Positions 3,549 to 5,308 of a DNA stretch of 64,000 nt are shown piece by piece (the stretch's first letter is position 1; each line of letters starts with the position of its first letter). The stretch is from assembly GCF_900110455.1 (NCBI RefSeq), contig NZ_FOIS01000002.1, positions 496,001 to 560,000 on the forward strand. The letters are read 5' to 3'. A model generated the notes under the pieces. That model saw nothing but the letters and a program-made list of their open reading frames with translations. It was not told the origin of the DNA and did not search any database. Position numbers and translations under genes: made by a program. Source of the stretch: Natrinema salifodinae. Its GTDB lineage: Archaea; Halobacteriota; Halobacteria; Halobacteriales; Natrialbaceae.

Positions 3549-3695
3549 ACGGACGCTGGCAGCGGTATTCGTCTCTACCGCGTCTCCGGAATTAGTCGAC
3601 CGATACTGGCCGCTCACCGTCCGTCGCAGATCGTCTCTCCTCGCGCCGCGCTCGCGTCTTCTATTCGACTCGCTTGTATTCGGTGCAGCGCCGAC

Positions 3696-3724
3696 TAACG
3701 GGTCCATATTACCAACACCCGTTA
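3696..3724. promoter_or_regulatory. Inverted repeat TAACGGGT-N13-ACCCGTTA next to a TATA box
   Basis: Perfect 8-base arms at 3696-3703 and 3717-3724 are separated by 13 bases. The repeat ends seven bases before the TATA-like GATATAA at 3731. That position fits an operator or activator site overlapping the BRE region. The outer half-sites TAACG/CGTTA recur at 7214-7225 and 58300-58311. Confidence 0.45.
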
Positions 3725-3730
3725 ACAGTA

Positions 3731-3737
3731 GATATAA
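3731..3737 (+). promoter_or_regulatory. TATA-like box GATATAA
   Basis: The AT-rich hexamer lies about 26-32 bases before the first base of the hairpin-rich segment at 3763. Archaeal TATA boxes are centred near -27, so transcription would be predicted to start around 3758-3763, at the foot of the outer stem. Confidence 0.45.
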
Positions 3738-3762
3738 GTCCACACAGGTCAACAATCAGAAC

Positions 3763-3833
3763 GGAAGCCGATCTCCGAACCGGGGACGTACGGAAACGTC
3801 CCGGGTGGACCTAGCACCCGAGACTCGGCTTCC
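3763..3833 (+). ncRNA. Candidate structured RNA with a three-way junction
   Basis: The ends pair strongly: GGAAGCCGA (3763-3771) with TCGGCTTCC (3825-3833), continued by TCTC (3772-3775) with GAGA (3820-3823), giving 13 pairs with one bulged C at 3824. Inside are two hairpins. One is GGGACGT (3783-3789) with ACGTCCC (3796-3802) and a six-base loop; the other is GGGTG (3803-3807) with CACCC (3815-3819) and a seven-base loop. They abut and could stack. A TATA-like box upstream suggests plus-strand transcription. There is no T-arm or other tRNA signature and I match no known RNA family. It could be a small RNA, a long-leader element for the gene at 3989, or a chance fold in GC-rich DNA. Confidence 0.4.
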
Positions 3834-3988
3834 ATCCGAGCGGATCGAAGCCATGATTCCGTACATTCTACCGGGATATAAACGTCCCGAACGACCGCCG
3901 AATCGCTTGCGACGATCAGCCACGGCTCCATTTTCGGGCATCACGAGGAGCAACGCGGTCGATAACCGCACCGCCAACGGGGGAACCG

Positions 3989-4225
3989 ATGAGTAGCGAC
4001 TGCTGCGACGACCAGGCGACCGTGGAGAACGGAGAGACCGCGGGGACTACGGAGACCGCGGAAACCGCGGACGCCGACGCACCCACCCGGCCGCCGCTCC
4101 CCGACTGCCCCCATTGCGGCGACCCCGTCCTGATGGTCGTCGCCACCGGTCCCCACGAGGGCTCGGCCGTCCCCTGCGGGTGTTCGGTGCCGCCTGGCCT
4201 GATCGAGCGCCAGCGCGACTCGTAG
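3989..4225 (+). CDS. Small CPxCG-type zinc-finger protein
   Basis: A 78-residue protein. Its first half is low-complexity Glu/Thr/Ala (repeated ETAET units) after MSSDCCDDQ. The second half is a zinc ribbon-like segment with CPHCG near residue 38 and a CGC pair near residue 64, enough Cys to bind one zinc. Haloarchaea encode many such short zinc-finger proteins, mostly with unknown partners. It starts at ATG 3989 and a possible TATA element lies about 25 bases upstream. The candidate RNA at 3763-3833 lies upstream on the same strand, so that RNA might be its leader. Confidence 0.7.
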   Translation: MSSDCCDDQATVENGETAGTTETAETADADAPTRPPLPDCPHCGDPVLMVVATGPHEGSAVPCGCSVPPGLIERQRDS

Positions 4226-4429: not shown

Positions 4430-5308
4430 TTACTCGAAGTAGCTGCGCACGAATTCGTCTATCGAGCGAGCGGAAAATGCGGGGACGAATTCCGTTGCCA
4501 GTGATCTCCGGATTTCGACGTTGGTTTCAGTCGGTTCGCCTTCGATGACGTCGTTTCGCTTGGCAATCGCGTCGATCGCGTTCGAGAGGTCGACCGTCGC
4601 AATCGCTTCTTTCGTCTCTCTGGACCGGACGTCTTTGGCCCAGAGTACCCAGCGGAACCCGTCTGTGCCGATCGCAACGAGATATCGTTTCTCCCGACTC
4701 TCGAGGTACTTCGCGAACGTATTCGACTCGACGTACTCTTCGATGTCAGCGGTCGCATGTCGTTTGGCTCCCGACAGCTGTTCCTCATTTGCAGCCTTGG
4801 CTTCCAGAATGCAGTCGATTCGCGGCGAGACGTTTTTGAGGAGATAATCCGGGCGTTTAATCTCGATTTTACGATAGGTGCTCGGACGACGGACGAAATG
4901 CGGGCCCGTTCCGGTATAGTCCTCGGAAATTGGATTGAAATACCCGAGCCCGTGAAGCACCGGCTCGATGAGATACTGTTCCGTGAAGTGTTCTCGCGCC
5001 TGGTCGACTCGAGGACCCGATAGAGTATGTGGTGTACGACAGAGCTTCCGTAATTCTCCACCTTCTCCCAATTCACGAAACTTCTCGGGGAACACCTCGA
5101 GTTGTTGGCGGACGCGTTCCGCGAGAACCATATCCGCGTCGAGCTCCATAGTAGGGTTATCGGCAGTCATTCGTCGACAATTCGGGCCTGCCCCTCGATC
5201 GTTTGAACCCGCTCTTCTAGGGAAGGTCTCGGAAAGAAAGTCGAATTCGCGCAGTGGCAATCCGACATCTTCGTCTGTCTCATAATACCTGACATCTGGA
5301 ATTGTCAC
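4430..5308 (-). CDS. Stand-alone PD-(D/E)XK nuclease-like protein resembling HsdR N-terminal domain
   Basis: A 292-residue protein. Residues about 100-230 resemble the N-terminal nuclease domain of type I/IIG restriction enzymes. The literal motif is PD (153-154) in IKRPDYLL and then ExK (E169, K171) in DCILEAKA, followed by Gln/Tyr-containing helices and a YLVAIGTDGFRWVLWAKD strand pair. There is no helicase, methylase or specificity domain and no neighbouring restriction gene. The GTG at 5308 gives the longest frame; an ATG at 5170 (MTADNPTMEL) is an alternative that keeps the domain intact. GC is clearly lower than in the flanks, suggesting transfer. It could be a solitary defence nuclease, a remnant of a restriction system, or a type I R_N-domain protein of unknown role. 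Confidence 0.65.
   Translation of the reverse strand: MTIPDVRYYETDEDVGLPLREFDFLSETFPRRAGSNDRGAGPNCRRMTADNPTMELDADMVLAERVRQQLEVFPEKFRELGEGGELRKLCRTPHTLSGPRVDQAREHFTEQYLIEPVLHGLGYFNPISEDYTGTGPHFVRRPSTYRKIEIKRPDYLLKNVSPRIDCILEAKAANEEQLSGAKRHATADIEEYVESNTFAKYLESREKRYLVAIGTDGFRWVLWAKDVRSRETKEAIATVDLSNAIDAIAKRNDVIEGEPTETNVEIRRSLATEFVPAFSARSIDEFVRSYFE

Follow-up and report, generated by a model that had tools for sequence, protein, structure and literature searches.

In the hok/mok/sok system, the leader frame mok is coupled to a second small frame, hok. Leader-peptide attenuators with translational coupling make use of hairpins near the start and of a short upstream frame overlapping the gene that follows, and the T-box and other structured bacterial leaders possess a long structured 5' UTR with competing helices. 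Antisense-controlled mRNAs engage in kissing contacts via U-turn loops with the YUNR motif, as the accessible part of one report describes (PMC7472228), and on the protein side the accessible part of another introduces the C(P)XCG zinc-finger micro-proteins of Haloferax volcanii, which are very small, contain two Cys motifs and number many per haloarchaeal genome (PMC11241148).

Here we describe a structured leader with two overlapping small frames, sORF1 and ORF2, found in the window, by which we mean the whole 64-kb stretch of DNA that was analysed. Like hok/mok/sok, it is a leader mRNA with predicted alternative pairings around the start, with an overlapping leader frame and with paralogs that would have to avoid cross-reaction; the leader frame overlaps or nearly overlaps the second frame in 133 of the 146 copies of our set (defined below), the coupling itself being putative. 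Unlike hok, however, ORF2 is an acidic zinc-finger protein and no small hydrophobic membrane toxin (mean GRAVY -0.46, thus hydrophilic; Cys4 motif in 135 of 137). In addition, the leader is archaeal, and an antisense RNA is putative here, where a minus-strand TTTAWA could start it. With leader-peptide attenuators it has in common that sORF1 is short, overlaps ORF2 and has hairpins near its start, but there is little constraint on the tail of sORF1 (pN/pS 0.90 from codon 23 onwards), and the leader forms a large multicopy family with a hypervariable loop. The long structured 5' UTR and the predicted competing helices recall the T-box and other bacterial leaders, but the leader has no Rfam match. 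Finally, ORF2 resembles the C(P)XCG micro-proteins in being very small, in its two Cys motifs and in being numerous within haloarchaeal genomes; for those micro-proteins the accessible part of the report mentions no leader RNA (PMC11241148), and ORF2 itself matches no curated Pfam or NCBIfam family at cut-off.

Used as a BLAST query, the segment retrieved three copies from the genome to which the window belongs, and many other genomes of this family gave good matches. A covariance model (R1) built from 32 aligned copies gave six copies in the own genome (G000), at E < 1e-18, and detected the RNA in 80 of the family's 125 genomes, with 22 matches in genome G072 and 28, the highest number, in genome G029. 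Among 292 genomes of the class, 59 had matches; 10 of these genomes do not belong to the family and have a single weak match each. The named records that show the core pattern, among the matches listed, are all from what we take to be Natrialbaceae (Natrinema, Natrialba, Halovivax, Halopiger and others). Copies are found on plasmid records as well, where the leader region bears no annotation and ORF2 is either unannotated or a "hypothetical protein". For the counts given below we used a set of 146 copies, selected by a sequence pattern that covers P3, CATG and P4 and with repeats of the same DNA removed; this leaves out, for example, L026 and L092, and retains 24 of the 28 G029 copies. One leader of the family, with the loop CACCAA, stands on a viral contig (L301, 8508-8647) before a frame that matches phrog_27279, of unknown function. 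PHROGs gave a match only for this protein, and a search of phage records gave no match.

The features of the locus are collected in Table 1. An earlier note on this DNA had proposed an undescribed structured RNA with its own promoter, built as a three-way junction, and indeed the junction at 3763-3833 is present with its outer stem and its 7-pair and 5-pair hairpins, the outer stem P1 being composed of 9 pairs, a bulged C and 4 pairs. The fold of 3755-3840 is better than that of shuffled DNA, with -41.6 kcal/mol compared to -27.7 (sd 3.3) in 200 dinucleotide shuffles, none of which reaches the energy of the real segment (z = -4.2). The stems also covary in relatives. In alignment A4, which comprises 99 matches from 99 sources selected among the collected loci and fitted to a covariance model, stems P1-P4 show 98 two-sided changed cells compared to 24.7 in shuffles, 0 of 500 of which reach this number. 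The modelled stems are 97.8% paired across the 99 copies, with two-sided changes at 14 of 23 pairs: 6 of 9 modelled pairs in P1 (helix 1), 3 of 4 in P2 and 4 of 5 in P4, which occurs across copies as CGGGATATAAACGTCCCG and also as CGAGACATAAACGTCTCG and CGAGACAAAAAGGTCTCG. In the stem of P3 (helix 3), 99.8% of the cells are paired, with one two-sided cell, and the junction nucleotides are near-invariant among the copies. P5 is very variable in sequence (125 distinct sequences); its pairing is mostly retained, with an MFE under the shuffled mean in 125 of 146 copies.

Table 1. Positions in the window of the promoter, the RNA elements and the two reading frames.
Feature	Positions	Strand	Sequence and remarks	Basis
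Promoter element	3726-3738	+	CAGTAGATATAAG; TATAA (3733-3737) begins 30 nt before the first P1 nucleotide	
P1 5' strand	3763-3775	+	GGAAGCCGA plus TCTC	fold
P2 hairpin	3783-3802	+	GGGACGT / loop ACGGAA / ACGTCCC	fold
P3 hairpin	3803-3819	+	stem GGGTG/CACCC, near-invariant	
P3 loop	3808-3814	+	GACCTAG, hypervariable between copies	
P1 3' strand	3820-3833	+	GAGA, bulged C, TCGGCTTCC	
P6 5' strand	3827-3832	+	GGCTTC, shared with the P1 3' strand	
P5 hairpin	3834-3845	+	ATCC-GAGC-GGAT	
P6 3' strand	3847-3852	+	GAAGCC, pairs with 3827-3832, ends at the AUG; excludes P1	
sORF1	3853-3996	+	47 codons, basic leader peptide MIPYILPGYKRPERPPNRLRRSATAPFSGITRSNAVDNRTANGGTDE	
P4 hairpin	3872-3889	+	CGGGAT-ATAAAC-GTCCCG, within sORF1 codons 7-13	
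ORF2	3989-4225	+	zinc-ribbon-like, acidic, 78 aa; Cys4 (CPHCG...PCGC); 8-nt overlap of its start with the sORF1 stop	

The conserved segment extends to about 3896. The elements come in the order TATA box, P1/P2/P3, variable hairpin P5, GAAGCC strand, CATG and sORF1 with P4, and a covarying RNA structure stands upstream of, and at fixed relation to, the start codon. The Rfam search gave no family at gathering score over the 64-kb window, nor did 3600-4000 yield any with E values of up to 5, and a tRNA search of the segment gave none, in line with the absence of a tRNA signature that had been noted before. The leader is an RNA family of its own, real and uncatalogued, and absent from Rfam.

The promoter element of the proposal is there as well: the TATA-like box is present, and in 126 of 146 copies it begins 30 or 31 nt ahead of P1. 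The perfect inverted repeat next to it (TAACGGGT at 3696-3703, ACCCGTTA at 3717-3724) can also be seen, but its suggested role as an operator finds no support, as an 8-bp repeat occurs at the same place in only 1 of 146 copies, outside the conserved unit. The proposal had further left a choice between a stand-alone small RNA and a leader for the Cys-rich protein at 3989. CATG and the putatively coupled frames, found in almost every copy, speak for the leader and disfavour the stand-alone RNA. We therefore regard it as quite unlikely that a small RNA gene stands here by chance before a separate gene with its own promoter. The own TATA box and a second TATA-like stretch before ORF2 (TATAAA, 3877-3882) would suit such an arrangement, but CATG follows directly after P6 and opens a frame that is open to ORF2, with the overlap in 133 of 146 copies. 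A processed leader RNA may come from the segment.

The absence of an open reading frame of note, as claimed earlier, did not hold, since the invariant ATG at 3853 opens a frame of 47 codons whose end overlaps the Cys-rich gene. Of the earlier note, then, the fold, the promoter and the leader option stood, while the operator and the missing frame did not. Across the copies, sORF1 encodes a basic peptide of 28-50 aa, is opened by a CATG common to nearly all of them, and has its frame open as far as the ORF2 start in 133 of 146. In the first 32 copies examined, where ORF2 was found by its Cys motif and the sORF1 stop was not used, the small CPxCG...PCGC protein lies downstream of 28 (the chance frame of L019 is not counted). 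The same way of finding ORF2 was used for the overlap check, and with the Cys motif alone the ORF2 start again overlaps the sORF1 stop. In the 146-copy set, in which ORF2 was sought only at most 30 nt from the sORF1 stop, the offset between this stop and the ORF2 start is -4 in 70 copies, -8 in 46, -11 in 9, +1 in 6 and another value in 6, and 9 copies have no ORF2 by the rule used. The first stop of the sORF1 frame falls within -12 to +2 nt of the ORF2 start in 133 of the 137 copies with ORF2, compared to 0 of 137 for each other frame, in a test that favours frame 0 because ORF2 was sought near the sORF1 stop. The 13 exceptions among the 146 consist of the 9 copies without ORF2 and 4 with ORF2 at other offsets. 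From the layout of TATA box, RNA and CATG-sORF1, together with the overlap of sORF1 and ORF2, we therefore take the RNA to be the structured 5' leader of a putatively coupled two-gene message. The leader copies without an overlapping zinc-finger frame by our rule are L018, L019, L057, L074, L090, L094, L107, L132 and L179, some of which may be decayed.

Among the 137 ORF2 proteins, 115 are of type A (PCGC) and 20 of type B (CxxC..CxxC), and the mean pI is 4.7 for ORF2 and 11.3 for sORF1. Pfam and NCBIfam gave no family above the curated cut-off for ORF2 (best E 0.005). The codon test was made with 79 non-independent pairs having an ORF2 identity of at least 0.85, and it gave a pN/pS of 0.24 for ORF2, hence purifying selection. 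Codons 2-14 of sORF1 are frozen at all positions (pS 0.010), and the constraint therefore acts on the nucleotides. Codons 15-22 have a pN/pS of 0.76 and the codons from 23 to the end the 0.90 given above; sORF1 therefore has the look of a leader peptide that is translated but has a tail of little importance. The ORF2 profile matches stand behind a leader in 5 of 5 cases in the own genome and in 21 of 24 in G072. Locus L350 (G072:C3:1193935) holds an ORF2 relative with the conserved TATA stretch and no recognisable leader, perhaps a decayed copy. Two loci of one genome, L317 and L324 (both G235), contain sORF1-like frames (MFNHTRPGFKRPDRR.. and MTRYTQTGQKAPARL..) and P4 behind a differently built 5' RNA, and in L324 the sORF1-like stop overlaps a second frame in the same ATGA type. 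The sORF1 module may therefore have other leaders too.

Next to the junction, an alternative pairing is available: the 3' strand of P1 (GGCTTCC) can pair with the GAAGCC at the AUG to give helix P6, which encloses P5. The two conformers of the copy in the window are predicted at -47.0 and -45.4 kcal/mol. Among the 146 copies, the P1 and P6 conformers lie within 5 kcal/mol of each other in 104, and P1 is the lower one in 118. The cognate P6 duplex has -9.16 compared to -8.57 (sd 0.08) for swapped partners, a difference that 0 of 200 permutations reach (107 distinct pairs). Covariation in the P6 columns is modest when counted in A4, an alignment fitted to a model without P6: 81.7% of the cells are paired and 18% unpaired, and there are 5 two-sided cells, which 11 of 500 shuffles reach. 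In distant leaders from other haloarchaeal families (L318, L319, L321 and L323) the P6 strands change jointly, with pairing still possible. They read GGTCTTCC with AAAGACC-ATG in L318, GGGTCCCC with GAACCC-ATG in L319 and GTCTTTTC with GAAAGACC-ATG in L321; on the viral contig they are GGCATC with GATGCC. In several of the distant leaders there is no sORF1, and the ATG belongs to an ordinary single gene that is often Cys-rich; the leader therefore reaches beyond the sORF1-ORF2 pair. Neither ORF2 nor the proteins encoded after distant leaders reached a curated family at cut-off, the sole match named, below threshold, being SWIM. As a junction stem is in competition with a hairpin whose end coincides with the AUG, the predicted folds suggest a translation switch.

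The P3 loop is hypervariable. Between ten near-identical G072 paralogs it differs at 0.61 of sites compared to 0.12 at ORF2 third positions, 0.08 in the 3' flank and 0-0.03 elsewhere in the junction; these paralogs also vary in P5 with the P6 arm (0.28) and in a stretch far upstream (0.31). The 146 copies contain 89 distinct loops of 6-7 nt, 60 copies having 6 nt. Within one genome, identical loops occur in 1 of 639 pairs, where 8.0 are expected (P = 0.001, cluster-preserving permutation), and between genomes in 117 of 9383 pairs of non-orthologous copies. The loop GACCTAG is kept in L005, L006 and L008, which are close relatives from different species; other close relatives change the loop. 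Its first and last positions avoid pairing (6 of 51 seven-mers, 18 expected). From these patterns we read the P3 loop as a putative copy-specific RNA-RNA recognition loop. Seven regions of the same transcript were searched for the complement of the loop, and none exceeded permutation at k = 5 or 6; loop-loop pairing between copies of one genome amounts to 3 pairs compared to 7.3 permuted (k = 5) and to 43 compared to 47.4 (k = 4). Mimicry of an anticodon loop, which the 7-nt loops would suit through a T at position 2 (63%) and a purine at position 6 (98%), was set aside, with 60 of 146 loops having 6 nt. The loop also bears on a ligand riboswitch, for example for metal, that would control a set of zinc-finger genes. 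Near-invariant junction nucleotides, two competing structures and many Cys-rich downstream genes, distant members included, would all suit an aptamer, but one would not expect the aptamer of a shared ligand to contain a hypervariable loop that hardly ever recurs within a genome, and we consider this explanation unlikely.

A further pattern, noticed prior to its test, is YUNR at loop position 1, which is present in 28 of the 89 distinct loops in sense, in 20 as reverse complement and in none as both, leaving 41 loops without it. The total of 48 compares to 10.8 in letter shuffles and 33.7 in column shuffles, and 0 of 2000 shuffles of either kind reach it. This strand symmetry fits sense-antisense kissing, but also an inversion of the loop in DNA. 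P3 would then mainly be a DNA site, namely an inverted repeat with a 6-7 bp spacer, in which a recombinase or hairpin-loop inversion flips the loop. Indeed, the stem is self-inverse and some close pairs resemble flips (GTAACAG/CTGGTAC; GATCCAG/CTGGAAC). The flip fits only some close pairs, however, and P1, P2 and P4 covary as RNA helices, which makes the DNA site very improbable.

Kissing would lead to a module of the hok/mok/Sok kind, in which a putative antisense RNA contacts the P3 loop and blocks sORF1 and hence ORF2, the two small proteins forming a regulatory or toxin-antitoxin-like pair. We hold this to be possible, if rather doubtful. Pointing in this direction are the YUNR loops, U-turn-like in either the sense or the antisense reading, and the overlap of a basic and an acidic small protein; the avoidance of identical loops within a genome is also what one would expect of antisense RNAs that have to stay specific to their own copy. 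Moreover, a box stands on the minus strand at a fixed place: TTTATA at 3882-3877, within P4 and about 25 nt from the 3' boundary of the leader, could start an antisense RNA at this boundary. TTTAWA is present in 108 of 146 copies. The box is missing, however, from type B copies (CAAAAA in 22 and CATAAA in 15 of 146) and also from distant members without sORF1, and ORF2 is hydrophilic.

The explanation that we prefer, with a probability of roughly 0.6, is a structured 5' leader that acts in cis on a bicistronic mRNA and combines the choice between P1 and P6, translational coupling and a copy-specific contact at P3; its structure, layout, frame overlap and loop evolution are direct observations. 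Judged from the TATA spacing, transcription would start just before P1, about 30 nt after the TATA box. The leader would then fold either as the P1/P2/P3 junction or as the P6-with-P5 hairpin that ends at the start codon, and this choice would set how frequently ribosomes start on sORF1. Ribosomes that end sORF1 would, as the overlap suggests, restart on ORF2 by translational coupling. The P3 loop would be the contact that recognises each copy separately, most likely by pairing with a putative partner RNA, which may be an antisense transcript from the same locus.

One may speculate that the paralogous leaders of a genome, with their distinct loops, act as RNA address labels that are read by putative antisense or trans RNAs, an idea that we offer as tentative. 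If true, up to dozens of leaders per genome would allow each zinc-finger gene to be controlled separately, through rapidly changing loops of 6-7 nt that differ within a genome and whose vocabulary is recycled between genomes. The parts of the literature covered by our searches describe neither such a system in archaea nor the leader RNA or the sORF1-ORF2 protein pair. The family is large, still expanding and mostly coupled to a two-gene micro-operon of unknown proteins, and a loop that outpaces silent sites yet stays distinct within a genome offers a testable case of diversifying RNA recognition in archaea.

Two observations concern the neighbourhood in the window, both on the minus strand. 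By eye only, the frame at 4430-5308 recalls the N-terminal domain of type I restriction enzymes, and the neighbouring frames at 746-1672 and 1770-2354 look, by eye, like exported thioredoxin-like proteins.
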